From an uncultured Faecalicatena sp. (GTDB lineage Bacteria; Bacillota; Clostridia; Lachnospirales; Lachnospiraceae), in the NCBI GenBank assembly GCA_948468385.1, contig CAOKHZ010000004.1, positions 110,188-174,187 of the forward strand: a stretch of DNA of 64,000 nt. Reading direction: 5' to 3'. Of the stretch, positions 40,341-57,807 are shown one piece after another. Below the pieces are notes generated by a model that was given only the letters and a program-made list of their open reading frames with translations, had not been told where the DNA came from and searched no databases. Both the position numbers and the translations under genes were made by a program. Each line of letters starts with the position of its first letter. Position 1 is the first letter of the stretch.

Positions 40341-42392
40341 CTAAGCGTACTTACCATTCATATCCAACTGTAACGTTTTGACATCCACGCTTCCGCTTCC
40401 TTCATACCTGAAAAACAAGGCTGAGGTTCCTTTAACGAAAATCTTCGTCTCCGTGCCCGTCCATGTGGCGCTTTCTGCGATTTCCATTTCTCCCAGAACG
40501 TTTTCCATCTTTTCATCGCTCCCCAACACGAACTTTCCCGTCCCACTGCCACGATAAAAAACCTTCACCCTCGTTTCTCCCTGGAAGTCAAAATATTTAT
40601 ATCCCATCACGCTTCCCGCATCCACGCCCTTTATGTATTGCTCGTGATTTTCACTGTCCACGATGGGCACGTCTTCCAGCTTTCTCCCAAACACCGGAGG
40701 TTTACATCCGCTCGCCCCGATTAAATTACAACAGATGCTGGCCGGATACGCCCGATCCGTTGGCAACGGATTTCCATATAGCCCCATGCTGCTCATCTCC
40801 ACCTGCGCTATTTGTCCGTCCGCCCCAATCCGTATTCTCTCGGCGCAACCCTGACGGCAGTACATCGTGCCATGCGTATGCCGATGGTAGAAAATGTAAT
40901 ATTCTGACCCTAGCCGCGCGATTCCCCCATGGTTGTTCGACGGCGACCAAACGCCATCCTCACGTCCAAGATATCCAATGTCCGCGTTCGAGATTATCAC
41001 ACCCCGGTACGCATATGGCCCCTGCGGCTTGTCCGCCGTGGCGTAGCAAAGCTCATGTCCCCATTCCGAACAATATACGAGATAATATGTGCCTTCTATT
41101 TTTCGGATGGACGCGGCCTCAAAAAAGGCATGTCCCTCATACTCGGTTCCTTTTGCATGCTTTTTCGCCGGGAGGATGATTTCTGGTTCCCCTTTTATCG
41201 TCAGCATGTCGTCACATAACTCCACGAAGCTGCATCCCGGACATTCTTTACTTTCCCCATGCGTTGCAAAATGTGGCGCAAATCCATAATAGAGGTAAAT
41301 GTGACCCTCATCGTTGATGACCGCCGGGTCGTACGGCATGTTGCTTGTCAGGATTTCACCGTCTGGATGCATTACGTTTCCCAAATAGTCAAACGGGCCG
41401 GCCGGGTTTTCCGACACCGCCACCGAAATCTGCGGAATCAAGTCCAAGCCATAGTACAAATAATATTTCCCGTCATTTCCCCTGACCACGTCCGGAGCAT
41501 ATAAATAATGCGTCCCGTCCGCGTTGGCCGGATCCTGACTCCGCCGATAGGCGACGCCCTCACATTTCCAATCTGACAAATCCTTAAGCGGGGCCGACCA
41601 CACCTCGTAATCCAAAGGACAAAACCTGCTCCCGTCCTCCTCATCATGCGAACCATATAAGTAAACCCTGTCGCCAAACACATGCGGCTCGCCATCCGGA
41701 ATGTAGGTATGAAGCGGAAGATACGGATTCCAGCTTATTTTGTCCGCTTTTTCGGCCTTGTCCGCTTTTTCCGCCTTGTCCGCTTTTTCAACCTTGCCCA
41801 TTTTTTCGTTTCGTCCTTTTCCTTCTTCCGCCGTAAAGGTCATCCGCGCCGTCGTGCCTTGCCTGATTCTTTCATACATCCATGTGACCACAAGCACCAC
41901 CAACACCCCGTAAAGCGTTGACATGAGCCTAAACAGCGCGTACCAAACACGGGCATGTCCGGACAGCGTAAGCGCCACCAGGATAAACGTGACACCGCCA
42001 ATCCTTGTCGTAAAGGCGGGAACCTTTGCCAATTTACAAAGGTACAACGTGGCCAAGACGCCCAACATCACCATGACGACCATCGCCCACTGATTTTGTA
42101 ACGCCGTGTCCGCAAGCACCACGAGCACCGCCAGGCCGCCTCCAATCGCCGTGATAATCATCCGCGTGACACCGGACTTGTAACTAATCTTCGTTGTGTC
42201 CTGCACGACCAAAAGGCAAGTGATGCAGGCCGTCATCTTTTGAAGCACTTCCAACTGCATTTCCCCATAGGAAAATTTTAAGCCGAAATAATTTAAAAAC
42301 GTCGCGGTCAGGCAACAAATCCCGACCGAAATCACCATCCGAAAATCCAGTCCCGTGACCGAGGCTTTCTCTTCTATTCTTTCTAGCTTCAT
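40341..42392 (-). CDS. fusion of FUSC/ArAE-like membrane domain and GH43 glycosidase
   Basis: 683 residues in one uninterrupted frame, first gene of the importer operon. Residues about 15-190 hold six hydrophobic segments resembling the N-terminal domain of FUSC/aromatic-acid-exporter-like proteins (LEVLQKMTACITCLLVVQDT, IITAIGGGLAVLVVL). Residues about 195-219 are a charged linker with KADKAE repeats. From Trp221 the protein is a complete GH43 five-blade enzyme: NPYLPLHTYIPDGEPHVF with the likely base Asp233, YAPDVVRGNDGKYYLYY, and the likely acid Glu in GHAFFEAASIRK, followed by a C-terminal beta-sandwich. An even number of helices puts the enzyme in the cytoplasm, tethered to the membrane next to the importer. 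Arabinofuranosidase or xylosidase activity is plausible. Confidence 0.88.
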   Translation of the reverse strand: MKLERIEEKASVTGLDFRMVISVGICCLTATFLNYFGLKFSYGEMQLEVLQKMTACITCLLVVQDTTKISYKSGVTRMIITAIGGGLAVLVVLADTALQNQWAMVVMVMLGVLATLYLCKLAKVPAFTTRIGGVTFILVALTLSGHARVWYALFRLMSTLYGVLVVLVVTWMYERIRQGTTARMTFTAEEGKGRNEKMGKVEKADKAEKADKAEKADKISWNPYLPLHTYIPDGEPHVFGDRVYLYGSHDEEDGSRFCPLDYEVWSAPLKDLSDWKCEGVAYRRSQDPANADGTHYLYAPDVVRGNDGKYYLYYGLDLIPQISVAVSENPAGPFDYLGNVMHPDGEILTSNMPYDPAVINDEGHIYLYYGFAPHFATHGESKECPGCSFVELCDDMLTIKGEPEIILPAKKHAKGTEYEGHAFFEAASIRKIEGTYYLVYCSEWGHELCYATADKPQGPYAYRGVIISNADIGYLGREDGVWSPSNNHGGIARLGSEYYIFYHRHTHGTMYCRQGCAERIRIGADGQIAQVEMSSMGLYGNPLPTDRAYPASICCNLIGASGCKPPVFGRKLEDVPIVDSENHEQYIKGVDAGSVMGYKYFDFQGETRVKVFYRGSGTGKFVLGSDEKMENVLGEMEIAESATWTGTETKIFVKGTSALFFRYEGSGSVDVKTLQLDMNGKYA
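41743..41796 (-). repeat. 18-bp tandem repeat encoding the fusion linker
   Basis: Three units of TCCGCTTTTTCGGCCTTG (plus strand) at 41743-41760, 41761-41778 and 41779-41796, encoding repeated KADKAE at the junction of the membrane and GH43 domains. Confidence 0.85.
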
Positions 42393-44288: not shown

Positions 44289-45035
44289 TTAACAATCAAA
44301 ATTTTCAAAAGTCAATTTCCGCCCATCCGCCAAATAATCGCCCTCCTCCGACCACACGGTTCCCATAACGTACCATGCCCCCTTCATTTTTACAAACTGG
44401 TTTGCATACTGTACATTCTGGTGCGAATCCGGACAGTCATTTGGAAGCAGGTTAAAATCCGGTACAAAATGATACGGCCCCCATATTGAGTCGGAAACCA
44501 TATAATAGCTTGTCTGACGCAGTTTGTCACCGTACTTTTCTATCATCCAATCCGCAAACAAATCATGAAAGCATGAAAACAGCAAGACATATTTTCCCCC
44601 CATATAATAAATCTGCGGACACTCCAGCTCCTGACAAACCGGCTCGACCTGCACTTCCCCGATTACCCTCCACACTTTCATGTTCATGCTCTGGCAAATG
44701 GCAACGGTTCCGCAGGCATCGGCCAAAGCCGTTTTGCTCGTCGCGCAGACCAGTGCATATAGTTTGCCGTCATGTTGTATCAGCTTGGCATCCCGCCAGT
44801 GGCAAAATTTTCGAAGTCCTCTGCCCAATGGGGCGACCACTCGCACATCCGGCAATATCACTGGATTTTGCGAAAGTTTTTCCCAATGGTACAAGTCATC
44901 CGAGACCGCGATTCCGATTTTTCCGGCATCCGAATTCCATTGCCCGGTATAACTCATCCAAAAACGACCTTCCCATTCTAGCACCGAACCCGTAGACAGA
45001 CAGGTTTCGTCCCATTCACCCGCTTCTCTACTCAA
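44289..45035 (-). CDS. GH32-like beta-propeller glycosidase, N-terminally truncated
   Basis: 248 residues from a TTG at 45033-45035, the first possible start after an in-frame stop. The protein begins inside the fold at EAGEWDETCLSTGSVLEWEG, equivalent to the second blade of GH32-type propellers. It keeps the RDP-like motif CHWRDAKLIQHDGKLY and the EC motif LECPQIYYMGGKY with the probable acid/base Glu. The first blade with the Asp nucleophile (about 80-100 residues) is missing, so hydrolysis is doubtful. It overlaps the dehydrogenase gene by 8 bp. GH43-type relatives are an alternative family. Confidence 0.72.
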   Translation of the reverse strand: MSREAGEWDETCLSTGSVLEWEGRFWMSYTGQWNSDAGKIGIAVSDDLYHWEKLSQNPVILPDVRVVAPLGRGLRKFCHWRDAKLIQHDGKLYALVCATSKTALADACGTVAICQSMNMKVWRVIGEVQVEPVCQELECPQIYYMGGKYVLLFSCFHDLFADWMIEKYGDKLRQTSYYMVSDSIWGPYHFVPDFNLLPNDCPDSHQNVQYANQFVKMKGAWYVMGTVWSEEGDYLADGRKLTFENFDC

Positions 45036-46047
45036 ACAATAACGCCACTTTCAACGCCCGTTTTTCCCGAATCACCGCAAATCCCTCCTCGTATTCTTCC
45101 AGCAAAAACTGATGGGTCACAAGTTCGTCCGTCTTGATTTTTCCTGACAGAATCCCTTCCGAAACCAAATCATGTGTCAGCATTTCACATTCCTCAATCG
45201 GCCACTGCACGAACTGTAACGAAAAATTACGCATATCCGTCAAATCCAGTTGCAGGTTCGAACCCGTTCCCAAACCATACACCACGATTTTACCGTCCGC
45301 CGCGACAAAATCCATTCCCTGTCCAATGGTATCGGTACTTCCAACGTTGTCCAGATAAATCGTAACACGTCCGCCGTAGGTCTCTTTCAACCTTGCCTTT
45401 TCCATTGCATCCTTATTCCAAAACACGTCAACGGCTCCCAACCTTTTCGCCACTTCCAGACTGCTCTTCCGATTCCCCAGCATCATGACGTTTTCTATTC
45501 CCAACAGTTTCAAATTGCTCAAAAAGCATAAGCCCACGGGGCCGTCCCCCACGATTAACACCCCGTCTTTTTCTTGTATCCCTGCCCGTTTGATTGCGCT
45601 GCAAGTCTCTTTTAGCGTAATCATAAGCGAGGCCTGAACGGACGTAATCTCTTTTTTCACCACTTGCTGTGTCAGGCCGCTTCTATTTTCCAATCCGTCC
45701 CGCCGCATGGCCGCACTGTCAACGACAACGCCATACTCCGCAAACCCGCCCCACGCGCTGTAATATTTTTCATTGTCGGGAAGGCTTGCACGAATCACAC
45801 GGTCCCCGATTTGATAAGTCGTCACTTTATCGCCCACGGCCACGACGCGCCCCGCGCTCTCATGCCCCAGCATCAAGGGGAAATTCGGTGTCTCCGGCAA
45901 TCCCCCCCTTATGATTTCCATATCAGTTCCATTACAAATCATACAGCATTCCGTCTTTACCAACGCCTCATATGCGCCTATCACCGGCATCGGAATATCC
46001 GGGACAAGCTCTATTTTTTTATCTGACGTGACAACAAGGCCTTTCAT
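45028..46047 (-). CDS. zinc-type medium-chain dehydrogenase
   Basis: 339 residues from the ATG at 46045-46047, after GGAGGTGG; the frame is open to 46107. The catalytic domain starts MKGLVVTSDKKIELVPDIPM and contains the zinc-ligand region CCMICNGTDMEI and LMLGHESAGRVVAVGDKV. The structural-zinc loop with four cysteines is absent. The Rossmann motif is VLIVGDGPVGLCFLSNLKLL. It probably oxidises a sugar or sugar alcohol with NAD(P)+. Position in the LacI operon, after the glycosidase and glycyl radical enzyme, suggests a step in catabolism of the imported sugar. Confidence 0.9.
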   Translation of the reverse strand: MKGLVVTSDKKIELVPDIPMPVIGAYEALVKTECCMICNGTDMEIIRGGLPETPNFPLMLGHESAGRVVAVGDKVTTYQIGDRVIRASLPDNEKYYSAWGGFAEYGVVVDSAAMRRDGLENRSGLTQQVVKKEITSVQASLMITLKETCSAIKRAGIQEKDGVLIVGDGPVGLCFLSNLKLLGIENVMMLGNRKSSLEVAKRLGAVDVFWNKDAMEKARLKETYGGRVTIYLDNVGSTDTIGQGMDFVAADGKIVVYGLGTGSNLQLDLTDMRNFSLQFVQWPIEECEMLTHDLVSEGILSGKIKTDELVTHQFLLEEYEEGFAVIREKRALKVALLFE

Positions 46048-46123
46048 CTTTCCATCCACCTCCATCTTCTTATGGTGCCATTTTTCACGGACATATGCCG
46101 CCCGCACCGTTTTTTCCCGCCCT

Positions 46124-48334
46124 CTATAGTTGGTAGTTTAGCACTACGGCATGTTCTCCTTCCAGTTCCCAGGGAATCCATTCACAAGGGGCATCATCCA
46201 AAAGCATCTCGGAATGTCCGCTTGTTTCCCGCGTATATACGGCAAGCGTCATCTGACAATATCGCAGGTTCTCGACGCGTATTCCTCTCAGCTCTTTCGG
46301 AATACATGGCTTGAATGAAATTCCCCGTTCCTCCAGCTTCAGCCCAAGCACTCCGTATAACAGCATGGAAATATATCCCATCGCGTGCCACGTCTGCCCC
46401 GGCCACCGCCAATTTCTTCCCGTGTCCGTATCCAGCACCTCATAAAATGTTTTCTGAAACACCGAGGAGCGAATCTGCTGCGCGATAAGCTTCATCAAAA
46501 GCGGACGATTTCCATTTTCCCCGGCGCATTGTGCATATCCCGTATAATATACCGGCCACGCCGCGTGGGTGACATGGCTTTTCTCCCGGTGTCCGGGCAT
46601 CAAGGGAATTCCGTACTCCGTGAGAATTTTCTTCTCCAGTACCTTCAAAATCTGTTTTTTCTGCGTCTTTGCAGCCACCCCGAATCGTTCCAGAATCGCC
46701 GCCTCCTGACCGCAACTTTCCCATGTTCCTTCTAAAAATCCCCGACTTCCGACAGGCCCCGAAGTATAATATTGATACTCCGGGTTCCAATATTGTTCTC
46801 GAATCGTCCTAAGCAGCGTCCGATATCTTTTTTCATATGGAATTGCATCAAATGAAACCGCATGGGAATGCCTCCCCTTTGATTGCATTTCCCCGGATTG
46901 CACCGCCTCACTTTGCGTTTTCTCTTTCGTGGCTGCAAACAGCTCTGCAAATTTTGCCGCCGCCCGATACGCCTCCATAAAATAAATTTCCGTGCTAAGC
47001 GCGTACCCGTCCGCCTCCGTATCCGCAAACGCGTCGTTGGCCGAATTATACGCCGCACGCATCAGCCCGCGCTCCATATCAAAATAAGATTCCGCTTCCC
47101 GCATTTGCTCTTGTATGTGCGGCCACATGCCGCGAACGGTTTCGACATCGTGTGTCGCAAGATAATATTCCCAACAGCTTATGACGGGCGCCGCAATTCC
47201 GTCTACTGCATTGTCCTTTCCGCTCTTCATAATATACTGCAACGTTTTTCTGGAAACCTCCGGCTCCCAAAGCACGCCGCCCCGCAAAAAAATCTGCATG
47301 GTGTCCCGCCGCCATACACCAAACCCCATGCCCTTCCCCTGAAAGGCTCCGGCCGACCACATGCCCTCCTCACCCGGTAAGGCGAATTTAGAAGAGCAGG
47401 CATCCGTCAATACATCCAGCGCCACATGGTAAGCCGCATCTATAGATGGGATTCCCGTCGTGATTTCCGGGAACCTCGTCTGTGGTTTTCCCCTCCAGAC
47501 ACTTTCGTGATTTAAAATCCTCGTCATGTCCCCCATCGGGGTATGCCGCCATTCAAATTCCTCCGTCACACGCGGCGGCGAACAAATCGTATAGGCATCA
47601 AAAACATACGCGTCCGGCTTTCCATAAGCACGGTCCGACAACCGATTTTCGCGGATACAGTAATTAGCACTCTGATAGACCATTTCGCCTCCCCTGTCCA
47701 TCCCTTTGCCCACAGGAAGTCGCCGTTCTATTTCCGCTTCCACCTCTTTGGAATATGTAGACGCACGCAAGCCATACACCGTGAGACAAATCAAACAACC
47801 ATTCCCGCACCCTTCAAAGGAACCCGCCAGCCCGCTTCGCGCGGCCACAAAAATGCGCTCCTCTGACTCCTGCGTTTCCTTCCACTCCCGCGTTCGTTTT
47901 CCGCAAAAACTTTCCTTTCCCAGCCGTACCTTGAATTCTTTCTCATCCAAATACATGTGAATCAAAATCACACCATCGTGATGTTCCAAAAAAACCGGCT
48001 CTTCCTCCCCCACCGTCAGCATGTTTGAAACAGCGTCCCAAATCACATGTTCTCCCAAAATAGAGCACTCTATCTGTTGCGCACATCCCGCGTCCACCAC
48101 GAGTTCTACCTCGTATCGGTTCGTCTCCCGCCGAAATTGCCCCTTTGGCACACAAACGATTTCGATGTCCGGCCAGGTTGCCGGCTTGATTTCAAACGGC
48201 AAGAAAATTTCAAATGGGCGTTCTAACGACTGGTATCTCCACTGTCGTTTCCAAATCCGACATTTTTCTGTCTCTTTCCAATCAAAATCGCCTCCCGCCC
48301 TCCACCCCGGGTCATTTATCTCTTTCTTTTCCAT
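46124..48334 (-). CDS. (alpha/alpha)6-barrel glycosidase, family unassigned
   Basis: 736 residues from the ATG at 48332-48334 with AGGGG upstream. No signal peptide. An N-terminal beta-sandwich (about 1-290) precedes a helical barrel containing GIPSIDAAYHVALDVLTDAC, GFGVWRRDTMQIFLRGGVLW, EAYRAAAKFAEL and GNRPLLMKLIAQQIRSSVFQ. The end ISFKPCIPKELRGIRVENLR resembles the C-terminal domain of GH65/GH94/GH78-type proteins. A polar insertion of about 30 residues (EKTQSEAVQSGEMQSKGRH) interrupts the barrel. I cannot name the GH family. It likely cleaves an imported oligosaccharide in the cytoplasm. Confidence 0.8.
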   Translation of the reverse strand: MEKKEINDPGWRAGGDFDWKETEKCRIWKRQWRYQSLERPFEIFLPFEIKPATWPDIEIVCVPKGQFRRETNRYEVELVVDAGCAQQIECSILGEHVIWDAVSNMLTVGEEEPVFLEHHDGVILIHMYLDEKEFKVRLGKESFCGKRTREWKETQESEERIFVAARSGLAGSFEGCGNGCLICLTVYGLRASTYSKEVEAEIERRLPVGKGMDRGGEMVYQSANYCIRENRLSDRAYGKPDAYVFDAYTICSPPRVTEEFEWRHTPMGDMTRILNHESVWRGKPQTRFPEITTGIPSIDAAYHVALDVLTDACSSKFALPGEEGMWSAGAFQGKGMGFGVWRRDTMQIFLRGGVLWEPEVSRKTLQYIMKSGKDNAVDGIAAPVISCWEYYLATHDVETVRGMWPHIQEQMREAESYFDMERGLMRAAYNSANDAFADTEADGYALSTEIYFMEAYRAAAKFAELFAATKEKTQSEAVQSGEMQSKGRHSHAVSFDAIPYEKRYRTLLRTIREQYWNPEYQYYTSGPVGSRGFLEGTWESCGQEAAILERFGVAAKTQKKQILKVLEKKILTEYGIPLMPGHREKSHVTHAAWPVYYTGYAQCAGENGNRPLLMKLIAQQIRSSVFQKTFYEVLDTDTGRNWRWPGQTWHAMGYISMLLYGVLGLKLEERGISFKPCIPKELRGIRVENLRYCQMTLAVYTRETSGHSEMLLDDAPCEWIPWELEGEHAVVLNYQL

Positions 48335-48384
48335 CAAAATTTCCCCTCGCCTTCCATTTCCAAGCATTCCTTCATTTCATTCCG

Positions 48385-49371
48385 TTAATTCCACTCCACG
48401 CACACGCCCGTCCTTCTAAATTCTTCCAGCATCCACTCCTGCCGTTTCTCATCCGGTGCCTCAAACCGGGGCATGTCCGTCCCCAAGGCACGGTATTTCG
48501 GTTCTCCCAGCGTATGGTACGTCAACAGTTGGATTTTCTTCAGACGTTCTCCCATTCCGCCAAGTGTATTTAACATTGCCTCGACTTCCTCTTCCGTATC
48601 ATTTACTCCGTGAACGACCGGGATTCGAACCCAGCAATCGGCAAGCTGCGTAAGCCGTTTTAAATTCTCACAAATCCGCTCATTTGACACGCCCACATAT
48701 TTTTTATGCGTGTCGGAAAGTCCCGCCTTCATGTCGACCAAAAACAAATCCGTGACCGAAAGCACGCCCTCCACCGTGTCCCATGGAAGATGCAATGCCG
48801 TATCAACACATACGGAAATCCCTTCCGCCTTCATTTTAGATGCCAGATAAAATACCTGCCGCGCTTGTAGAAGACATTCCCCGCCGGAAAATGTCACTCC
48901 GCCAAAACCAGGGAAATTTTTCTTGCCCCGCATGCATTCTTTTTCAATCTCGGAAAGCGAAACATGTTTTCCATACAATTCCAATGCATTGGCCGGGCAA
49001 GCCTCCACGCACCGTCCGCAGGCAAGACACTCCTTTCGTAACCATTCATGCCTCACATCCTCCCCTTCGTTTGGTGACTCTTTTTTGACGCAACCGATTA
49101 CGTCTGTTTCATGTAACCTTGTTTTCATCTTGTGAAGCCGACACGGACAAACCTCGCCGCACGTCCCACAGCCGATACACCGCCGTACGTCAAACCCGAC
49201 TTGTCCTTTCGAGGAAATCGTCTCTGGATTGTGACACCACGCACAATGGAGATTGCACCCTTTAAAAAATACCGTCGTCCGCACCCCCGGCCCGTCATGC
49301 AGGGAGAAGTGCTGAATATTTGTTATAAATGCGGTCTCAGCCGTTGCGCATGGTTCGCTCGATAACCTCAT
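48385..49371 (-). CDS. glycyl radical enzyme activase (radical SAM)
   Basis: 328 residues. The radical-SAM cluster motif CNLHCAWC (CxxxCxxC) follows IQHFSLHDGPGVRTTVFFKG, the usual N-terminal signature. A ferredoxin-like insert holds two more 4Fe-4S sites: CIGCGTCGEVCP and CLACGRCVEACP. This is the layout of activases for dehydratase-type glycyl radical enzymes rather than the short pyruvate formate-lyase activase. VTFSGGECLLQ is the conserved SAM-binding GGE region. It overlaps the end of the glycyl radical enzyme gene by 35 bp, so the pair is translationally coupled. It installs the radical on the Gly of RVCGYS. Confidence 0.95.
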   Translation of the reverse strand: MRLSSEPCATAETAFITNIQHFSLHDGPGVRTTVFFKGCNLHCAWCHNPETISSKGQVGFDVRRCIGCGTCGEVCPCRLHKMKTRLHETDVIGCVKKESPNEGEDVRHEWLRKECLACGRCVEACPANALELYGKHVSLSEIEKECMRGKKNFPGFGGVTFSGGECLLQARQVFYLASKMKAEGISVCVDTALHLPWDTVEGVLSVTDLFLVDMKAGLSDTHKKYVGVSNERICENLKRLTQLADCWVRIPVVHGVNDTEEEVEAMLNTLGGMGERLKKIQLLTYHTLGEPKYRALGTDMPRFEAPDEKRQEWMLEEFRRTGVCVEWN

Positions 49372-50434
49372 CCTGCAATTCCTCGCTCAGTGAAATAAAT
49401 GGCGCGCTATACCCGCACACACGTACAATAAGGTTCCTATGATTGTCCGGATCTTTTTTCGCCTGCAGCAACGTTTCCTTATCCACCACGTTGAAATCCA
49501 ACGCATTTCCGCCGCAATGTACGAACGCCTCCAAAATCCTCACAAACACATCCGTCCCGGCGGCATTTTTGCTGATCGGCATCTCCAGGTAGGACACGGC
49601 ACAGCCCGGATAATCCTTAAAGTCAATCGAACGCAGGGACTGCATCAGGGTCGCCGCGTCAATTTCCTTCGTGCTTTCCACCGGATTGCATCCACGGGAA
49701 ATCCTCTGCCCCGCATGTCTTCCGTCCGCCGTCGCCCAGGTATGTTCCTTCAAAACATCGTAGAAAAAGAATGCAAACAACGATGCTTCAAAATAACCGC
49801 CCCGGGCATTTGGCATGCCAGAACTATGTACCGCCAAATCGCGGAACACACGCCCGGCAAAGCTTGCCATCTCCTCGTCATCCTGCCCGTACTTCGGCAC
49901 TTTGTTTTGCAAATACAGCCGCCACGCCTCCTGCCCGGCAAAATCCGTTCGAAGCAGTTCCTTCATCTGCTCCATCGTCAGCTTCCGCTCTTCATATACC
50001 ACTTTCCGAATCGCGTACAGCGAATCGATAAACGTGCCGATTCCGATGAGCGAAAAGCTGCTCGAGTTATAACGCGCCCCGCCCCTTGTCACGTCCATTT
50101 TCTTATCGATACAAGTCTGCATGGTCGCCGAAAACAAAGGCATCGGATTTATTTCGGCCCAAATCTGCTCAAACCTGTTATAATGCCCTGCGCACGCAAA
50201 CAAGAATTGAGACAGATTGTAAATTACGGCTTCATAAAATCCTTCGAACGTATCCGCCTCGTCCGGTCTTTTAAGCACGATATGCTCCCGGCTCCAAAAA
50301 TCGAACTCCTCCGAAAACAGCATGCCGCTTACCATTTGCGGAAGATTCAGATACAAAAACGCCCTTGAATTACATTCATTGGACAAGACGGGTTCCTGGC
50401 AACCGCCAGCCAGATAAAGCCTGCAATCCTGCAA
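49337..50434 (-). CDS. glycyl radical enzyme, C-terminal part (after -1 frameshift)
   Basis: 365 codons open from 50434 (TTG; no real ribosome binding site), in the -1 frame relative to the upstream part. It contains the active-site cysteine in LAGGCQEPVL (codon 50399-50401) with Glu two residues later, as in dehydratase-type glycyl radical enzymes. DVTRGGARYNSS is present, and the glycyl radical loop RVCGYSAPF (Gly codon 49412-49414) lies near the C-terminus. It is probably not made on its own. Joined with the N-terminal part by a single -1 slip it gives a normal enzyme of about 748 residues. All hallmark residues are intact. Confidence 0.88.
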   Translation of the reverse strand: MQDCRLYLAGGCQEPVLSNECNSRAFLYLNLPQMVSGMLFSEEFDFWSREHIVLKRPDEADTFEGFYEAVIYNLSQFLFACAGHYNRFEQIWAEINPMPLFSATMQTCIDKKMDVTRGGARYNSSSFSLIGIGTFIDSLYAIRKVVYEERKLTMEQMKELLRTDFAGQEAWRLYLQNKVPKYGQDDEEMASFAGRVFRDLAVHSSGMPNARGGYFEASLFAFFFYDVLKEHTWATADGRHAGQRISRGCNPVESTKEIDAATLMQSLRSIDFKDYPGCAVSYLEMPISKNAAGTDVFVRILEAFVHCGGNALDFNVVDKETLLQAKKDPDNHRNLIVRVCGYSAPFISLSEELQDEVIERTMRNG

Positions 50435-51585
50435 TTTTTTCCCATTCTATGATGTGCCTCAATCAGTACGTCATCATTTAAAATAGATAACGCGTTCCTG
50501 CCCAGCGCGGCAACTTGCGCCACTATCTTTTTGTATTCTTCCGGATGGGCGGCAGAAATACGCACTTCCAGCTTTGGACTGGAGGTCTCATATTTGAGAA
50601 ATGAATTTAAAATCAGGCGTGTCACTTCATTGAAAATAACATTCCCGGCCGCGTCACACCCGCCAATCACGAGGGACGCATTCGTCCCGCTCGTCTCCGC
50701 CGTATGGCTCCACCTCACATCCGTAATCAAAACGAGGCAGTCTATCAAGTTTTGTGCCTCCTCTTTCGTAAGCGCGCCTTCCCTGACATCCTTTTCATAA
50801 AACGGGTACAAAATCCGGTCGTAATGCCCCATCACCGCAAAGCCGCTTCCTTCCATCGAAGTACACAATTCCCGTGTAAACCAGACGGAACACAACGCCT
50901 CATAAAATGTCCCTGCCGGATAACGTGGAATACGTTTTGCCGTGTCCCGGACTCTCTCAAGCTGCTCCCTTACCGACCAATCCGTCTCTTCTTCTAACAG
51001 TTCCGCCGCTTTGTCAGAAAATCGCTCTCCCAACAAAATTGCCGCGTCACATGCCGCCAGTGCCGCCTCTAAAAATTCCCGCTCCTCGGAATTTTTCACC
51101 TTGTCCGCCGTCCGCACATGTTCTTCCAGCTTGTTTGCAAGTTCATCGCGGATACTTTGAAACCCCCGGTGCATGACCGCCTCGACATCCGCATAATGAT
51201 GAGAATAGTCCACCATCATCTCGGCAAAAATCAAGTCCTTTTCCACATAAGGCGCGCGCCAGTCGTCAAATTCCTTCACCGGATAATGGGTTTTCGAAGT
51301 CCAGCATCCCAACCCCGGTATCGGAGGAAATGCCCCGGCCACCGAATTGCGCTCCCGTCCCGTAATGATTTCCGAGTAGAACGGACAGTACCGAAACACT
51401 TTGACTTCGCATTCTTGTGAAATGACTTCATATGTCCATCTCTTCTGCACCAGGGCGGATACGCCGTCCTCCTTGCGGTAACGTTCATTTAATTTTTCCT
51501 CCAACGCAGACACGTCCGCCGGATAGGTTCGATAAAACTCCTCGCTCTCCGTCCGGAATTTCTGTTCGTCAAATACGAATGCCAT
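50347..51585 (-). CDS. glycyl radical enzyme, N-terminal part (frameshifted)
   Basis: 412 codons from the ATG at 51583-51585 (AGAGGTG upstream; the frame is open to 51627, where the ribosome binding site is too close). Residues up to NDDVLIEAHHRMGK are the N-terminal half of a pyruvate formate-lyase-like glycyl radical enzyme, including RYPAGTFYEALCSVWFTREL and TSGTNASLVIGGCD. After MGK the frame leaves the family and ends 29 codons later. The break is at a GGGAAAAAATT run; a -1 shift restores MGKKLQDCRLYLAGGCQEPV. Alone, this fragment lacks both the active-site Cys and the radical Gly. It follows the permease genes of the LacI operon. Confidence 0.88.
   Translation of the reverse strand: MAFVFDEQKFRTESEEFYRTYPADVSALEEKLNERYRKEDGVSALVQKRWTYEVISQECEVKVFRYCPFYSEIITGRERNSVAGAFPPIPGLGCWTSKTHYPVKEFDDWRAPYVEKDLIFAEMMVDYSHHYADVEAVMHRGFQSIRDELANKLEEHVRTADKVKNSEEREFLEAALAACDAAILLGERFSDKAAELLEEETDWSVREQLERVRDTAKRIPRYPAGTFYEALCSVWFTRELCTSMEGSGFAVMGHYDRILYPFYEKDVREGALTKEEAQNLIDCLVLITDVRWSHTAETSGTNASLVIGGCDAAGNVIFNEVTRLILNSFLKYETSSPKLEVRISAAHPEEYKKIVAQVAALGRNALSILNDDVLIEAHHRMGKNCRIAGFIWLAVARNPSCPMNVIQGRFCI
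50435..50443 (-). other. slippery run at the glycyl radical enzyme frame break
   Basis: Minus strand GGGAAAAAA. In the zero frame it reads G GGA AAA AAT, which contains two overlapping X XXY YYZ heptamers (GGGAAAA and AAAAAAT). A -1 slip here restores the conserved frame. The alternatives are a single-base deletion (7 A to 6 A) or a sequencing error. Confidence 0.6.
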
Positions 51586-51648
51586 CAAAGGCACCTCTCT
51601 TTCTTTATTATCTTCTTTTTTCTTCATTTCCTTTCGCTTTTCCCGATT

Positions 51649-52470
51649 TTAGCGTCCACCCATTCCCGTCAGGGCAATTCCTTGTACCAGCCCTTTCTGG
51701 AATACGACGTAAAAGACAATGCCCGGCAGGATGCTGATCGTCGTCGCCGCCATCAGTGCCGACCAGTCCGTCCCATATTGTCCGCTAAACATATAAAGTC
51801 CCAGGGGAAGCGTCTTATATGCATCCGTCGAAGTCACGATTAACGGCCAGAAAAAGGATTTCCAGGAATTCACAAACGTAAAGATAGCAAGCGAAGCCAG
51901 CCCCGGCTTGGACATTGGCAAGATAATCCTCGTAAAGATGCCAAACCGGCTGCATCCGTCAATCTTGGCCGCCTCCTCGATTTCCACCGGAATGGAAAGG
52001 AAGAACTGTCTTAACATAAAGACACCGAACGCCGTAAACGAAGGCGGGATAATCAGTGCGGCGTACGAATTGTGCCATCCGAGCATTCGCAAAATCATGT
52101 ACAGCGGAATAATCGTCACCTGCAATGGCACCATCAGCGTCGCAAGATAGGCAAAAAACAATTTGTCCCTGCCCCTGAACTTCAACCTGGCAAAGGCATA
52201 GGCGGCCATCGCCGACGTCACCACCGTCACCGCGGTCGTTGCCACTCCCACAAAAATGGAATTGAACAAATACCGCCCAAACGGAAACGCGTTCCATGCC
52301 CTCACATAGTTTTCCACGGCAAAGTAGCTGCCAAACAACGCCGTCGTATTTTGAAGCACCTCCGCCTTGGGCTTCAAGGAGGTAGAAATCATATAGGCCA
52401 GCGGAATCAGGAAAAGGATTGTGACCAGAGTAATCAGCACGATTGACACTATTTGTTTTTTTCGTCTCAT
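51649..52470 (-). CDS. sugar ABC transporter permease, MalG/AraQ type
   Basis: 273 residues from the ATG at 52468-52470 (GGGAGG with a 6-nt spacer); an ATG 6 bp earlier is too near the ribosome binding site. Six membrane segments with the EAA loop EEAAKIDGCSRFGIFTRIIL. The N-terminal helix VSIVLITLVTILFLIPLAYM is typical of MalG-type permeases. It follows the MalF-type gene by 13 bp. It is part of the LacI-regulated importer and needs an external MsmX-type ATPase. Confidence 0.93.
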   Translation of the reverse strand: MRRKKQIVSIVLITLVTILFLIPLAYMISTSLKPKAEVLQNTTALFGSYFAVENYVRAWNAFPFGRYLFNSIFVGVATTAVTVVTSAMAAYAFARLKFRGRDKLFFAYLATLMVPLQVTIIPLYMILRMLGWHNSYAALIIPPSFTAFGVFMLRQFFLSIPVEIEEAAKIDGCSRFGIFTRIILPMSKPGLASLAIFTFVNSWKSFFWPLIVTSTDAYKTLPLGLYMFSGQYGTDWSALMAATTISILPGIVFYVVFQKGLVQGIALTGMGGR

Positions 52471-52483
52471 GTTCATCCTCCCC

Positions 52484-53392
52484 CTAACTTTCGTAATTCA
52501 CAAAACGCTTCTGCTGCTTCATCAAAAATGCTGTCACGATCAAAATGCAGAAAAACAACACCCACGCAATCGCCGAGGCATACCCCAGCCGCTGGTATTT
52601 GAACGCATTGTTATAAAGATACAAAACCAATGTATTCGTCTCATTATTCGGACCGCCCATCGTGGAGACAAAGGTCTGGTCAAAAACCTGGAACGAACTA
52701 ATCACAGTCATCACGACGGCAAAAAATATGGAAGGGGACATGCATGGCAGCGTCACTCGAAAGAATGTCTGCACGGCGTTCGCCCCGTCAATTTTAGCCG
52801 CCTCCTGCACGGACTGGGAGACTCCCAAAAGTCCTGATATGAATATGACCATGTTATACCCGAATCCTTGCCACACGCTGACAATCACGACCGCAACCAT
52901 GGCAGTCGAAGTGCTGCCAAACCAGTTTGGCGCCTCCCCGCCGAAAAAACGGATCAGAGAATTCACAAGGCCGGCATCGCTTAAAATCCATTTAAAAATC
53001 ATGGTCGAAGACACGATGCCAATCATCATCGGCAGGAAAAACGCCGAGCGGAAAAATTCATTTGCTTTTTTCAAGCTGGTAATCCACACCGCCATCCCCA
53101 TGGCAATAAGCACGTTGAACGCGACATAGGCAACGACGTAGACCAGCGTGTTCTTCATAATTTTCCAGAACAACACGTCCTCGGTAAACAATTTTACAAA
53201 GTTGCCTAACCCGATAAACGTATGCTCCCCCGTCAACGGCCAGTCATACAAGCTCATTACCAGTGAAAATGCCATCGGAATCATGGTAAACATCAGAAAT
53301 CCAATCAGATTCGGGGCTAAAAATACAAGCGCCACTCCAAAATCACTTTTACGTTTTCTCTTAAAACCGGCTTTCTTTTCCGGCACGCTCAT
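52484..53392 (-). CDS. sugar ABC transporter permease, MalF/UgpA type
   Basis: 302 residues from the ATG at 53390-53392, preceded by GGGAGGTG. Six membrane segments, FLAPNLIGFLMFTMIPMAFS at the N-terminus and EAA loop QEAAKIDGANAVQTFFRVTL near residues 205-225. The segment VFDQTFVSTMGGPNNETNTL is characteristic of UgpA/MalF-type permeases in Firmicutes. It sits between the binding protein and the MalG-type permease in the LacI operon. Confidence 0.94.
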   Translation of the reverse strand: MSVPEKKAGFKRKRKSDFGVALVFLAPNLIGFLMFTMIPMAFSLVMSLYDWPLTGEHTFIGLGNFVKLFTEDVLFWKIMKNTLVYVVAYVAFNVLIAMGMAVWITSLKKANEFFRSAFFLPMMIGIVSSTMIFKWILSDAGLVNSLIRFFGGEAPNWFGSTSTAMVAVVIVSVWQGFGYNMVIFISGLLGVSQSVQEAAKIDGANAVQTFFRVTLPCMSPSIFFAVVMTVISSFQVFDQTFVSTMGGPNNETNTLVLYLYNNAFKYQRLGYASAIAWVLFFCILIVTAFLMKQQKRFVNYES

Positions 53393-53459
53393 GCACAAGC
53401 ACCTCCCTTAACCAAACGGGCAGGGGATGTATCAGTCCCCCACCCTCATCATAAACCTA

Positions 53460-54752
53460 TCACTTCAACAGCGCGTCCACCTGCGCTTGTATGTCCTTCG
53501 CCGCTTCTTCCGCGGTAGCCTCCCCGGAGAACACCACGTCCATGCCGGAATTCAAAATCGTACTCACTTCGGAAAAGTTTTCCGTTACATGATAAGGAAT
53601 TCCGATGTCAAGAGAGGCCTTGATGGCCTCTTCCAAGCCGTCCTGCTCCGACATCGCCTCATAATAATAATCACGGACGGATTCTCTGGATGGCAATGCA
53701 CGGCCATTTTCCGCCAGAATCTGCTGCGCCGCCGGCCCCGTCAAGCTCTGCAATGCCAGATACGCCTCCTTTGGATGCTTAGTCGTATTGCTTACCGCTA
53801 GTCCAGAACCATTAATCGTCGTCACATGCTGCCGTGCCGCCGGAACAATCGTATAACCGACATTGAAATCACAATAGTTGATTACATTGGAAACACACCA
53901 CGGCCCGTCAATCAACATTCCGATGTTTCCTGCCTCAAACTGCTCCCAGTTCCAAACCGTGTTGGCCGTATCCGCAATCTTCGGCGCATATCCCTGCACG
54001 TTAATCAGGTCCGCCAGTGTCTGCAACGCATCCGTCGTTTCTTTATCGGTAATTTCAAATGTTCCATTCTCATCAATAATCTCCCCGCCCAATGATAAAA
54101 CCTGCGGAATATAATAATCACAGCTGGAACAGAACACGGTTCCATAATTTCCGTCAACAGATAATTTTTGGCAGATTTCCAGGAATTCCTCCCAGTCCGT
54201 CTCTTCATCCGGATATTCTACCTTATACTTGTCAAAAAGGTCTTTGTTGTAATACATGACATACGGACCAAAGTCGTAAGGGAATGCATACACCTCGTCG
54301 TCAAAGGTAAAGCAGTCCAGGATTCCCGAATAGAAATCCTCCATGTTCACATTTTCATCATCCTTGATGTATTCTCCTAGCGGAAGCATGGAATTTTTGT
54401 AATCCGATGCCCTTGAAAAATGCATATACATCAAATCCGGCGCACTGCCGCTTGCCAACTCAACCGGAAGCTTCGTCCAATAGCTCGTCCAATCCGTGTT
54501 CTCTATCGTAATCTTAATATTCGGATATTCCTTCGTCACATTGTCGGCAAGCTGCTGCCAGATTGCCGCTTCCGCCTCGCTCTCGCACTTGTTTAACCAA
54601 CGCAGCTCCACGATTTCTTCTCCACCGTCCGTCTGCGTCCCGTCCATACCATTCCCGTCCGTCTTTGCGTCATCACCCGAACCGCCGCATGCCGCCAATG
54701 ACAGTGTCATCAGCATCGCCATTAAAAAGGCTGCCACTTTTCTTTTTTTCAT
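53460..54752 (-). CDS. extracellular sugar-binding lipoprotein (family 1)
   Basis: 430 residues from the ATG at 54750-54752 (GGAGGAAG upstream; the frame is open to 54788). Signal peptide with lipobox SLAAC (Cys22), then a short linker and a MalE-type binding fold: ELRWLNKCESEAEAAIWQQL, VYAFPYDFGPYVMYYNKDLF and AFPYDFG hinge, and GNIGMLIDGPWCVSNV. It is the first gene of the LacI-controlled operon. Two operator-like palindromes lie at its promoter. The substrate should be a mono- or oligosaccharide degraded by the downstream enzymes. Confidence 0.94.
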   Translation of the reverse strand: MKKRKVAAFLMAMLMTLSLAACGGSGDDAKTDGNGMDGTQTDGGEEIVELRWLNKCESEAEAAIWQQLADNVTKEYPNIKITIENTDWTSYWTKLPVELASGSAPDLMYMHFSRASDYKNSMLPLGEYIKDDENVNMEDFYSGILDCFTFDDEVYAFPYDFGPYVMYYNKDLFDKYKVEYPDEETDWEEFLEICQKLSVDGNYGTVFCSSCDYYIPQVLSLGGEIIDENGTFEITDKETTDALQTLADLINVQGYAPKIADTANTVWNWEQFEAGNIGMLIDGPWCVSNVINYCDFNVGYTIVPAARQHVTTINGSGLAVSNTTKHPKEAYLALQSLTGPAAQQILAENGRALPSRESVRDYYYEAMSEQDGLEEAIKASLDIGIPYHVTENFSEVSTILNSGMDVVFSGEATAEEAAKDIQAQVDALLK

Positions 54753-54871
54753 CTTTCTTCCTCCATACTTTCTGCCGCTTTCTTCCATTCTTTTTCCTGC
54801 TATCGGAGAAGTCGGCCTTTCTTTAGAAGCATAATCCTATGCTCCTGTCTCCTACGTTCCATCCACCTCTG

Positions 54872-54891
54872 TATGTCAACCGGTTGTCATA
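54872..54891. promoter_or_regulatory. LacI-type operator O1
   Basis: TATGTCAACCGGTTGTCATA, a near-perfect palindrome centred on CCGG. It lies about 120 bp upstream of the binding-protein start, just downstream of the predicted transcript start. Confidence 0.8.
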
Positions 54892-54904
54892 TCGTGGTAC
54901 ATCT

Positions 54905-54945
54905 ATCATATCAATCTTTTTATTTTATGTCAACCGGTTTTCATA
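54905..54945 (-). promoter_or_regulatory. promoter of the LacI-controlled operon with operator O2
   Basis: Minus-strand TTGACA (54929-54934), 18 bp, TATGAT (54905-54910). The -35 lies inside the operator TATGTCAACCGGTTTTCATA (54926-54945), so a bound repressor would block RNA polymerase. Confidence 0.75.
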
Positions 54946-55056: not shown

Positions 55057-55098
55057 TATGTGAAAACGGTTGACATCCTATTTCATGTCCATTATAAT
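55057..55098 (+). promoter_or_regulatory. consensus promoter of the LacI gene with operator O3
   Basis: TTGACA (55070-55075), 17 bp, TATAAT (55093-55098). The -35 overlaps an operator-like site TATGTGAAAACGGTTGACAT (55057-55076), which fits autoregulation. The AT-rich 54946-55056 stretch shows no gene. Confidence 0.8.
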
Positions 55099-55180
55099 GA
55101 TAAATAGAAATACGCCCTATCCGGCAGTGATCCGTTTTCCTCATTGCCCATGGGACAAAAAACAACGCGAGGTTTTCATC

Positions 55181-56164
55181 ATGCCAAATATTAAAGATGT
55201 TGCTGCTCTTGCCAATGTTTCCGTCACGACCGTTTCCCGCGTCTTAAACAAGCGCGGATATATTTCCCAGGAAACATACAAAAAAGTATATGACGCCATG
55301 AAGCAGCTTGATTATCAGCCAAACCAACTTGCACGTAATTTGTATAGCCAGCGAACTTATTTTATCGGCCTTCTCGTCCCGGACATCTCACATCCCTTTT
55401 TCGCGGAGATGGCCCATCGGATTGAGACGCTCCTCTTTGACCATGGCTACAAGGTTATTCTTTGTAATACGCAAAAAAATGATACCCGCGAGCAAAATTA
55501 TCTAAACATGCTCCGTCAAAACAAAGTGGACGGTGCCATTGTCGGCACCCATATGCTCGAGGTTTCCGATTATGAAAAACTCACCCTGCCCGTTGTCGGC
55601 ATGGACGTGTTTCTCGGCGACTCGATTCCCACGGTTTGCGCCAACCATATCCGCGGCGGCAAGCTAGCCGCAAAGCCGTTTATAGAGGGCGGCGCGCACA
55701 CCGTTTTGCAAATAAAAGGGAATCATGATATCAAATGCCCGGCCTGGACAAGGCATTCCGTATTTGTTTCGGAATTACATGAACATAACATTCGTTGCAT
55801 TGATTACGAACTCAAAGAAGAAGAATTTATTCGCTCCGAATACTATGGCATCATCCAGAAACTGGTTGAACAGCATCCAGAAGTTGACGGATTTTTTTCA
55901 ACCGACACAGTCGCCATGAATGCCTTGAAATATTTTTTGGAACAAGGAAAACGAATCCCACAGGATGTGATGATTGTCGGTTATGACGGCATTGATGCCG
56001 CCAAGACCTCCTATCCGTCCCTTTCCTACGTGGAACAGCCATTTGACAAGCTGGCAGAAGTAATCGTGGATACCCTGCTTAGAAAAATAAATGGCGAAAG
56101 CCTCACGGAAAATATTACTGTGGAGGACATACGCTTTGTCAAGGGAAATTCCACCCACAATTAA
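55181..56164 (+). CDS. LacI-family transcriptional repressor
   Basis: 327 residues from the ATG at 55181 (GAGG upstream; the frame is open from 55070, inside the promoter). The N-terminus NIKDVAALANVSVTTVSRVL is the LacI helix-turn-helix, followed by the hinge helix YQPNQLARNL. The ligand-binding periplasmic-binding-type domain contains FIGLLVPDISHPFFAEMAHR and VDGFFSTDTVAMNALKYFLE. It is divergent from the sugar importer and glycyl radical enzyme operon, and three matching operators lie in the shared 428-bp gap. It should repress both itself and the operon until a sugar inducer is present. Confidence 0.95.
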   Translation: MPNIKDVAALANVSVTTVSRVLNKRGYISQETYKKVYDAMKQLDYQPNQLARNLYSQRTYFIGLLVPDISHPFFAEMAHRIETLLFDHGYKVILCNTQKNDTREQNYLNMLRQNKVDGAIVGTHMLEVSDYEKLTLPVVGMDVFLGDSIPTVCANHIRGGKLAAKPFIEGGAHTVLQIKGNHDIKCPAWTRHSVFVSELHEHNIRCIDYELKEEEFIRSEYYGIIQKLVEQHPEVDGFFSTDTVAMNALKYFLEQGKRIPQDVMIVGYDGIDAAKTSYPSLSYVEQPFDKLAEVIVDTLLRKINGESLTENITVEDIRFVKGNSTHN

Positions 56165-56517: not shown

Positions 56518-57807
56518 TTAAAACCGATATGTCCCGGCCTCCGCCTCCGTGGCGGTGCCGTCAATGATAATCGTCGCCGTCGTATTTTCCGGCACCACGA
56601 TTTCATAATGGAAACTGCCGTCTTCCTTCGTCCAACTCACCCTCACTTCCCCGTAAATGCTGTTATAGCCGCCTTTTGCATAGGTCAAGGTTCCTCCCGG
56701 AATCGGCGCGATCGTAAAGTGACGTTCTGCGTCCACCTTGATTCCCAATATCGTGTCATACATCCACTCACACACCGCGCCCGGCGAATAGTGGTTACGG
56801 CTGGCATTTCCTTCCCAGTCCTCCCAGACCGTGGTCGCCCCCGCGTTTACCTCGGAAAGCCAGCTCGGAGCCGTCTCGTTTTCCAGCATTTTGTACGCCA
56901 GGTCCACACGTCCGTTTTCTGTCAGCATTTTCAGCACGAACGGCGTGGACAAAAATCCGGTTCCGATACAAAATCCCCGGTTTTCAACCGCCGCGAACAA
57001 CCTCTTAGCCACCGCCTGCCTTTGTTCCTCCGGTACGCAGCCAAGTGCCAACGGCCGAACCAGTTTGGCCTGACGGTCGGTGTCCGGAACCTGCTTCAAG
57101 AAATTATTTGCATAGGCTTTCTTAGACCCTTTTGCATATTCCGCAAATAGTCTTTCGTCCTCTTCTTTACCCAGGACTCTGGCAATCTCGGCCATCGTCT
57201 CCATGGTCAGGTGGAAATATGCCGTCGCCTCCTCGACGCGCGTAAACTTCCCTGCGGACGAAGCATCAATCTTTTCCTTAAATTCTTCTGGTTCCAGCCA
57301 TTCCCCAAGATGAAAGCCCTTTTCATAAACATACTTATTATACGGGTCGGCCTTTGCCGCCTTTTTATCCTTGTGACCCGTCAGGGTAATGACATGTTTC
57401 GCGTACTTTTCCATCATCGGGTAGTAATCCCTTAAAATCTGTTCGTCCCCGTATTTCAGATAATACCGATACGGAACCAGGTAAATGACGTCGGCCCAAC
57501 CCACGGACGCACCCGTCGTGTTGTACATCGTCGCGCCTCTGCTAAACGGCATGACGGCTGGTATCATTCCCTTCTTATCCTGCGCGTCCTCCACGTCATG
57601 AAGCCATTTTCGAAAGAAAGAAGCCGTGTTCATCATATAGGATCCCGCGTTGAAGAACACCTGCGCGTCTCCCGTCCATCCAAGGCGCTCCCTGGTCGGG
57701 CAATCCGTCGGCACGTCCAGATAATTTCCCTTCATGCTCCATACCGTGTTCTTATAAAACTGGTTTACCTTTTCATTGGAACAAGAAAACGTCCCGATTT
57801 TTTTCAA
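56518..57807 (-). pseudogene. alpha-L-rhamnosidase GH78, N-terminally truncated
   Basis: 429 codons from a TTG at 57805-57807, without a convincing ribosome binding site. The catalytic barrel is complete: VPTDCPTRERLGWTGDAQVF with Asp35, Glu40 and Asp47 (numbering of this fragment), ATTVWEDWEGNASRNHYSPG and the C-terminal beta domain. The roughly 400-450 N-terminal residues of other GH78 proteins (compare 31094-33814) are missing. The truncation point abuts the promoter of the divergent TetR gene. Probably a deletion product, although a shortened product cannot be excluded. Confidence 0.78.

Follow-up and report, generated by a model that had tools for sequence, protein, structure and literature searches.

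Glycyl radical enzymes (GREs) account for much of the chemistry peculiar to gut anaerobes, and whenever one of them was assigned (for choline, hydroxyproline, sulfonates and anhydroglucitol), a metabolic route came to light that had gone unseen. Two of them, YbiW and PflD, serve the anhydroglycolysis of E. coli, reportedly the work of Ma et al. According to the accessible part of the published account, they cleave 1,5-anhydroglucitol-6-phosphate and 1,5-anhydromannitol-6-phosphate to yield 1-deoxyfructose-6-phosphate (PMC12441222). Radical sugar cleavage of this type, and eliminases with a Cys-x-Glu (CxE) active-site loop, are already known. What is new here is a clade of GRE eliminases in a new gene setting, found in a stretch of 64,000 nt (the window, to which all coordinates without a locus or contig name refer) on contig CAOKHZ010000004.1 of an uncultured Faecalicatena sp. 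The GRE, a radical enzyme of an oxygen-sensitive type, lies in a cassette with a sugar ABC importer, an activase, glycosidases and a zinc dehydrogenase, and this gene set points to an undescribed route of sugar breakdown. No published account of it was recognised among the best-ranked papers of the open PMC literature, subscription journals being outside the scope of the search.

The cassette and its relatives

A sequence-only reading of the window had listed a binding protein, two permeases, a GRE, its activase, a glycosidase and a zinc dehydrogenase, all on one strand behind a LacI-type promoter. Domain matches place every one of these genes where it had put them. The row, which runs on the minus strand from 54788 to 44289, also continues into a GH32-like gene that was absent from that list. 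The features of the locus are:

55070..56164, plus strand: divergent LacI-family regulator (PF00356 and Peripla_BP)
54928..54943, no strand: second operator-like palindrome, overlapping the -35 box of the operon promoter (1 mismatch to TGWCAACCGGTTGWCA)
54905..54933, minus strand: sigma-70-like promoter TTGACA-17-TATGAT, 11/12 consensus, the best minus-strand match in what was a consensus scan only
54874..54889, no strand: operator-like palindrome TGTCAACCGGTTGTCA, downstream of the -10 box of the operon promoter (0 mismatches to TGWCAACCGGTTGWCA)
53460..54788, minus strand: extracellular binding lipoprotein of the sugar ABC importer (SBP_bac_1)
52484..53398, minus strand: permease 1 of the importer (BPD_transp_1; GlcT/UgpA-like, below cut-off)
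51649..52476, minus strand: permease 2 of the importer (BPD_transp_1; GlcU/UgpE-like, below cut-off)
50347..51627, minus strand: N-terminal piece of the GRE, frame 1 of the split gene (PF02901 positions 156-417)
49337..50434, minus strand: C-terminal piece of the GRE with GGCQEP (thiyl Cys, CxE) and the glycyl loop RVCGYSA (PF02901 positions 420-640, PF01228)
48385..49371, minus strand: GRE-activating radical SAM enzyme with ferredoxin-type domains (TIGR02494, 288.1 bits, cut-off 174.35)
46124..48367, minus strand: (alpha/alpha)6-type glycosidase of no clear family (only DUF608/GH116, below cut-off)
45028..46107, minus strand: zinc dehydrogenase of the sorbitol dehydrogenase/ketose reductase type (ADH_N and ADH_zinc_N)
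44289..45035, minus strand: GH32-like beta-propeller gene, 5'-truncated in this assembly (Glyco_hydro_32N)

To look for the same gene order elsewhere, as had been proposed, genome contigs were scanned with the C-terminal piece of the GRE, which gave five related loci (L012-L016). A family search of 299 genomes, five of which (own genome included) held a match at E <= 1e-60, added five further loci (L017-L021) from four genomes. This makes 11 loci with the window, and the gene order is thereby seen to be kept in other Lachnospiraceae. L012, L014 and L015 are cut by contig ends, and L012 and L015 end inside the activase, so that genes beyond it were judged in nine loci only.

Our results show that the binding protein, both permeases, the GRE and the activase stand together in 11/11 loci, window included, and that the zinc dehydrogenase belongs to the cassette in all nine that could be judged, lying directly before the GRE in six (L016-L021) and after the glycosidase in three (window, L013 and L014). 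The (alpha/alpha)6-type glycosidase is found in six of the nine and the GH32-like gene in five, with longer copies in L013, L014, L018 and L019. Three of the nine (L014, L016 and L018) also contain a PfkB kinase and a class II aldolase, which the sequence-only reading had not foreseen. A LacI orthologue (46-98% identical) accompanies seven of the nine loci in which it could be judged, L014 and L015 being excluded here, and is missing in L017 and L020. The picture of a dedicated, LacI-linked sugar gene set hence stands, and a chance association of neighbours, very unlikely for a set common to 11 loci, was rejected. Around a core that does not vary, the genes for import and for hydrolysis are interchangeable. 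The binding protein of the window has MalE- and GanS-like matches far below cut-off, from which no substrate was named.

Among sampled genomes the GRE subfamily is rare. Profile A1 scored six member loci at 1181-1274 bits, followed by an orphan GRE of genome G536 at 572 bits, over a background that did not exceed 402.5 bits among 392 genomes from the order and 424.4 bits among 398 from the phylum (the own gene's two pieces set apart); these searches scored only two or three candidates per genome, and some members may have escaped. Within the genus, two of 11 other genomes carry the subfamily, and these are judged to be L012 and L013 again.

Two cassettes (L019 and L020) share one genome, G015; they have different importers and only one has the GH32-like gene, as if they served two related substrates. 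A search of G015 with the HypD profile gave nine further GRE places, two of them with stops. In L014, a small predicted lipoprotein with no NCBIfam match (5798-6331) lies between activase and glycosidase.

The glycyl radical enzyme

Membership of the GRE superfamily is given by PF02901 and PF01228, both above cut-off, and by a radical Gly that is invariant in alignment A1. In the ten intact members, the Cys loop is CQE in every case, the mark of the GRE eliminases, and the glycyl loop RV[CW]G[YF]SA is likewise present in 10/10. The sequence-only reading had argued from GGCQEP for an eliminase rather than a pyruvate formate-lyase, and rightly so: the motif is there, the loop is not Cys-Cys, and the pyruvate formate-lyase model TIGR01255 gives 81.3 bits for a cut-off of 994.2, which rules this enzyme out.

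The enzyme was also compared with the known eliminases. Four of the ten members were scanned whole against NCBIfam (P0001 of L013, P0002 of L016, and those of L018 and L020), and none of the four reached a curated GRE cut-off. P0001 scored 326.4 bits against trans-4-hydroxy-L-proline dehydratase HypD (NF043068, cut-off 1100), 310.3 and 241.3 bits against the sulfopropanediol dehydratases HpsG and HpfG (NF048011 and NF048009, cut-offs 1000), 245.9 bits against the choline trimethylamine-lyase CutC (TIGR04394, cut-off 1050) and 222.1 bits against the PflD type (NF007437, cut-off 1109), from which it also lies apart in the tree. The L013 GRE is 22.5-28.6% identical to seven characterised enzymes (YbiW, PflD, glycerol dehydratase (GD), propanediol dehydratase (PD), HypD, CutC and IslA), and its best solved-structure matches are HypD, GD and PD.

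In a quick tree of 70 rows, the ten members fall on one side of a branch with SH-aLRT 95. They sit on a long stem in common with the G536 orphan (support 100, length 2.61), and GD/PD, YbiW, PflD, CutC and IslA are placed elsewhere. The test of whether the GRE would cluster with a known enzyme thus left it outside their clades. Simple membership of the HypD, GD, CutC, HpsG or HpfG groups is ruled out by the curated cut-offs and by the pocket positions described below. By its sequence, the GRE appears to be a distinct, uncharacterised subfamily of CxE eliminases.

To define what sets this subfamily apart, the ten members were compared with 52 background GREs, a non-random sample made up of the best profile hits and three of the own genome. 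Lys342, Trp296, Gln401, Asp129 and Arg412 are present in 10/10 members and in none of the background; Asn306, Arg261 and His258, also in 10/10, occur in two, one and seven of the 52, respectively. The motifs GHxDR, PKxxxR, TDA[RK]W and GGCQE are common to all ten members. The G536 orphan (L087 5843-8230), which belongs to a different family within the order, shows three of them (GHVDR, GGCQE and PKxxxR), and no importer, dehydrogenase or other gene of the cassette was seen in its neighbourhood.

The members retain the CxE Glu as well as the His in the region of HypD His160. In GD, His281, Ser282 and Asp447 bind glycerol, and Tyr339 is a further substrate-contact position. Across the ten members, the position of GD His281 (HypD Asp278) is Gly or Ala, that of Tyr339 (HypD Phe340) is Asn, that of Ser282 is Phe, Val or Ile, and that of Asp447 is Ala, so that the His281, Ser282 and Asp447 contact set of the glycerol and propanediol dehydratases is changed in 10/10. 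The likeness to glycerol, diol and choline lyases that had been proposed therefore holds at the level of the CxE class and is general only, the substrate-contact positions not being kept. For HypD, residue roles are given in the available part of PMC7077986, where Asp278 is needed for activity. At the level of the alignment, these replacements suggest a pocket rebuilt for a larger, more hydrophilic substrate. Positions 252-253 also differ within the clade (AV in L019 and L021, GI in L020, GF in the others), making more than one substrate possible.

In the window itself the GRE is split into two open reading frames that overlap around 50347-50434, the homology passing from one to the other at about 50425-50445, next to a stretch of six A. 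The genome search repeats the split because it reads the same assembly, which consists of 62 contigs. The 748-residue enzyme announced by the sequence-only reading is hence a join of two frames and not one reading frame here; in the intact relatives the GRE is a single open frame in 10/10 loci and measures 739-755 aa with the starts used (763 aa from the first start in L017).

The own genome carries a second CxE-type GRE (L001, C4:35784-37856), which groups in the tree with the solved propanediol dehydratase 5i2a and by which the organism may also handle 1,2-propanediol.

Partner enzymes and control region

The best profile matches of the dehydrogenase are 3qe3, 1pl6 and 1e3j, that is, sorbitol dehydrogenases first and then an NADP(H)-dependent ketose reductase. 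C58, H82 and E83, presumably the catalytic zinc ligands, are invariant in 9/9 copies and align with Cys, His and Glu of 3qe3 and 1pl6. The Asp that ends the second strand in NAD enzymes is missing in 9/9, and at the place of the ketose-reductase Arg there is Arg in four (window, L013, L014 and L019) and His in five. The coenzyme site thus leans, weakly, to NADP(H) and a reductase role. The earlier proposal that sugar oxidation precedes radical dehydration is hence only one possible order: judged by the alignment and the coenzyme site, the dehydrogenase is no less likely to reduce what the GRE produces.

The activase scores above the curated TIGR02494 threshold. Of six copies of the glycosidase, three (L014, L016 and L017) pass Bac_rhamnosid6H, over about one third of the profile, and that of L014 passes DUF608 (GH116) as well; those of the window, L013 and L018 pass neither model, and the glycosidase profile weakly finds GH94, GH65 and GH78 chains. 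The best solved relatives of the GH32-like protein are GH32 chains. The GH32 clan is recognised by a catalytic Asp and the RD(P) and EC(P) motifs; D40, R168-D169 and E225 are invariant in four of four aligned relatives, but GDx replaces NDPNG.

The kinases inside cassettes are of the PfkB type, nearest to the IolC and ribokinase models and below cut-off. The aldolases are class II (PF01116) and retain the invariant His residues and the HGGSG motif, whose roles we take to be those of the family. The window cassette contains neither gene, and the closest kinase (56%) and aldolase (80%) of the own genome are adjacent on contig C28. Among 40 chosen genomes, a kinase at E <= 1e-60 was found in five of the six GRE carriers and in one of 34 non-carriers (Fisher p = 5.3e-5); in the sixth carrier, G104, the cassette stretch contains a kinase that is less closely related (28% identity). 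On C28 (L029 7309-10491) the order is a xylose-isomerase-like gene (TIGR02631, 203.8 bits, a name below the curated cut-off of 447), the PfkB kinase and the class II aldolase, a trio also found in G1025, G250 and G021 that is a possible ketose-1-phosphate route for pentose in Lachnospiraceae. G015 has the kinase and the aldolase (86%) without the isomerase-like gene by tblastn.

As for control, the true start of LacI is likely the ATG at about 55181 (MPNIKDVAALAN...). The window has three matches to TGWCAACCGGTTGWCA (<=3 mismatches) for 0.77 expected, a number reached in 2/100 shuffles, and this count alone is weak evidence. It is place and spacing that carry the palindromes, because the pair recurs upstream of the binding-protein gene with a spacing of 54 bp in the window, L012 and L013, of 55 bp in L019 and of 44 bp in L018 (3 mismatches each in these two). 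L015 has one copy near its contig end, and stray matches occur elsewhere in L019, L021 and L029. The window gave no match in scans for Rfam families and tRNA genes.

Apparent damage in this assembly extends beyond the GRE. Compared with L013, a locus of the same genus, the GH32-like gene is short of 261 bp of its 5' part, start included; the piece absent from the window would hold what we assume to be the nucleophile (the D40 part). The GRE split and this 261-bp loss may be real lesions or assembly faults. A further 123 bp are absent relative to L013 between the GH32-like gene and the next one. Outside the cassette, an alpha-L-rhamnosidase (56518-57807) has 429 aa for the 882 aa of its L013 counterpart, its N-terminal half being absent, and the open reading frame at 40341-42392 fuses a FUSC-type membrane piece to a GH43 domain, perhaps through a deletion or an assembly fault.

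Proposed pathway, alternatives and known systems

From the gene set and its conservation, the separate GRE clade with its CxE and glycyl loops and changed pocket, the palindromes and the co-occurrence of the kinase, all observed at the level of sequence, we infer the reactions, their order and the class of substrate. We tentatively favour, at a little short of an even chance, a catabolic cassette in which radical C-O elimination on an unphosphorylated sugar or polyol is followed by reduction, phosphorylation and aldol cleavage. Import of a glycoside or oligosaccharide would be controlled by a LacI-type repressor, probably through the twin operators, and from the imported compound cytosolic glycosidases, variable between species, would release the free sugar or polyol; it is the ABC importer and the glycosidases that suggest an unphosphorylated substrate. 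Once the activase has installed the radical on the GRE, the thiyl radical would abstract the hydrogen of a carbinol carbon; elimination of the adjacent C-O bond (to a hydroxyl, or to the ring oxygen of a cyclic or anhydro sugar) would give a deoxy carbonyl compound. The ketose-reductase-like dehydrogenase would then reduce the new carbonyl or shuttle it to a ketose, and the PfkB kinase and class II (DHAP-type) aldolase, whose genes are part of the cassette in some species and here lie elsewhere in the genome, would split the ketose phosphate. These last two steps are directly suggested in three cassettes only. One point against carrying the YbiW/PflD scheme over unchanged is that the ketose for a DHAP-type aldolase must offer a free C1 hydroxyl for phosphorylation, which a 1-deoxyketose does not have. 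If the enzymes act in series, the carbonyl would thus have to move, and the dehydrogenase could move it.

A more specific version, speculative and rather unlikely as it stands, is a radical glycolysis free of phosphate up to the kinase: the GRE would act on a free anhydro or cyclic sugar by opening its ring (or eliminate within a free sugar polyol), the ketose-reductase-like enzyme would alone move the carbonyl, and a ketose-1-kinase and the class II aldolase would produce DHAP and a short (deoxy)aldehyde. If true, this would give GREs a new class of substrate and gut Lachnospiraceae a new entry to central metabolism. Should the GRE act on free sugars at all, radical sugar breakdown would be widened beyond phosphorylated anhydrohexitols.

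The constant pairing of GRE and dehydrogenase can be explained in another manner, by analogy with glycerol dehydratase and 1,3-propanediol dehydrogenase. The glycosidase would split a glycosyl-polyol such as glycosylglycerol, the sugar half entering glycolysis, and the polyol half would be dehydrated by the GRE to an aldehyde that the dehydrogenase reduces as an electron sink, the product being excreted. GRE and dehydrogenase share the cassette in 9/9 loci and are direct neighbours in six, just as known eliminase-reductase gene pairs adjoin, and the kinase and aldolase are absent from six of nine cassettes. The replacement of the presumed glycerol-binding residues of GD in all ten members argues against this reading, as do the cassettes of L020 and L021, which have neither type of glycosidase (some neighbours there lying outside the scan), and we consider it unlikely. 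An equal measure of doubt attaches to an order in which the dehydrogenase comes first, oxidising the sugar to a keto sugar whose hydroxyl beside the new carbonyl is then eliminated by the GRE. Sorbitol dehydrogenases oxidise polyols and are the best solved relatives of an enzyme present in 9/9 cassettes, and the ketose-reductase Arg, in only four copies, slightly raises the chances of this order; the missing NAD-type Asp lowers them. Moreover, known CxE eliminases, as the available part of PMC7077986 describes them, start from a carbinol and need no prior oxidation.

That the GRE is merely a diverged glycerol, propanediol, hydroxyproline or choline-type enzyme is very improbable. HypD, GD and PD are indeed its best solved matches, the clade holding HypD is its sister, and CxE is kept. 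The identities and the scores given above (326, 310 and 246 bits for the HypD, HpsG and CutC models) are far from those families, the own genome already has the L001 enzyme that groups with propanediol dehydratase, and the residue aligned with Asp278, essential in HypD according to the part of PMC7077986 at hand, is Gly or Ala.

Returning to the favoured catabolic order of elimination, reduction, phosphorylation and aldol cleavage, several observations weigh against it. The Fisher test for the kinase ignores relatedness, and two of the carriers share one genus. The kinase and aldolase pair lies outside the cassette in six of nine loci, and tblastn finds the isomerase-like gene beside it in the own genome, G1025, G250 and the non-carrier G021; in G1032 (L113 8753-8998) the pair adjoins an 82-residue fragment of that gene, and in G013 the kinase stands alone in the 16 kb read. 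Adjoining a xylose-isomerase-like gene, the pair may serve that pathway, which weakens its role in that of the GRE, and it may split ketoses as a module that the GRE pathway shares with others. The coenzyme argument loses force because Arg is found in only four dehydrogenases, with His in five. No palindrome lies upstream of the operon in L016, L017, L020 or L021 (L014 is cut there), and L016 and L021 lack it despite their LacI orthologue. In five loci the binding protein has only 20-29% identity with that of the window. The tree sister of the GRE clade is a clade of 39 rows that holds HypD (support 95), and long branches were flagged, leaving the exact neighbour unsure. Between the more distant loci, the members themselves share only 40-46% identity, and according to the accessible sections of PMC11528403 GREs related to that degree often have different functions. 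For this genome, finally, the broken GRE frame and truncated GH32-like gene mean that the pathway may be lost or the assembly faulty.

The nearest precedent for the cassette is, by analogy, the YbiW/PflD pathway. There, fsaA adjoins ybiW, and we take an aldolase to act downstream, as we propose here. In the accessible part of PMC12441222, a GRE eliminase of the CxE class serves sugar metabolism by cleaving a C-O bond through radical chemistry, as proposed for the cassette. In E. coli, however, the sugar enters by the phosphotransferase system and is cleaved as a 6-phosphate, whereas the cassette has an ABC importer and glycosidases; the GREs are only 22.5% (YbiW) and 23.3% (PflD) identical, and the cassette aldolase is class II (PF01116). 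HypD resembles the cassette GRE as its best solved-structure match, in its sister clade, in the CxE loop and in the position of the catalytic His, but the two are 28.2% identical, the score is 326 bits for a cut-off of 1100, and the Asp278 and Phe340 positions are Gly/Ala and Asn. With the B12-independent glycerol and propanediol dehydratases (1r8w and 5i2a), which presumably work with an alcohol dehydrogenase, it has in common the eliminase family and CxE; identity is 26.4% and 28.5%, and the contact positions are changed. The HpfG-HpfD and CutC-type pathways are alike in coupling an eliminase to a reductase or dehydrogenase (HpfG-HpfD), as far as the sources available in part describe them, and unlike in that P0001 reaches 241 and 246 bits for cut-offs of 1000 and 1050. 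The aminoacyl radical enzymes, in the available sections of PMC11528403, are GRE-like proteins of unassigned function nearest to the eliminases; they replace the radical Gly, whereas the cassette GRE keeps it in 10/10. With signature residues of its own, a steady dehydrogenase partner and swappable importers and glycosidases, this GRE clade allows its substrate to be sought directly with the intact relatives.

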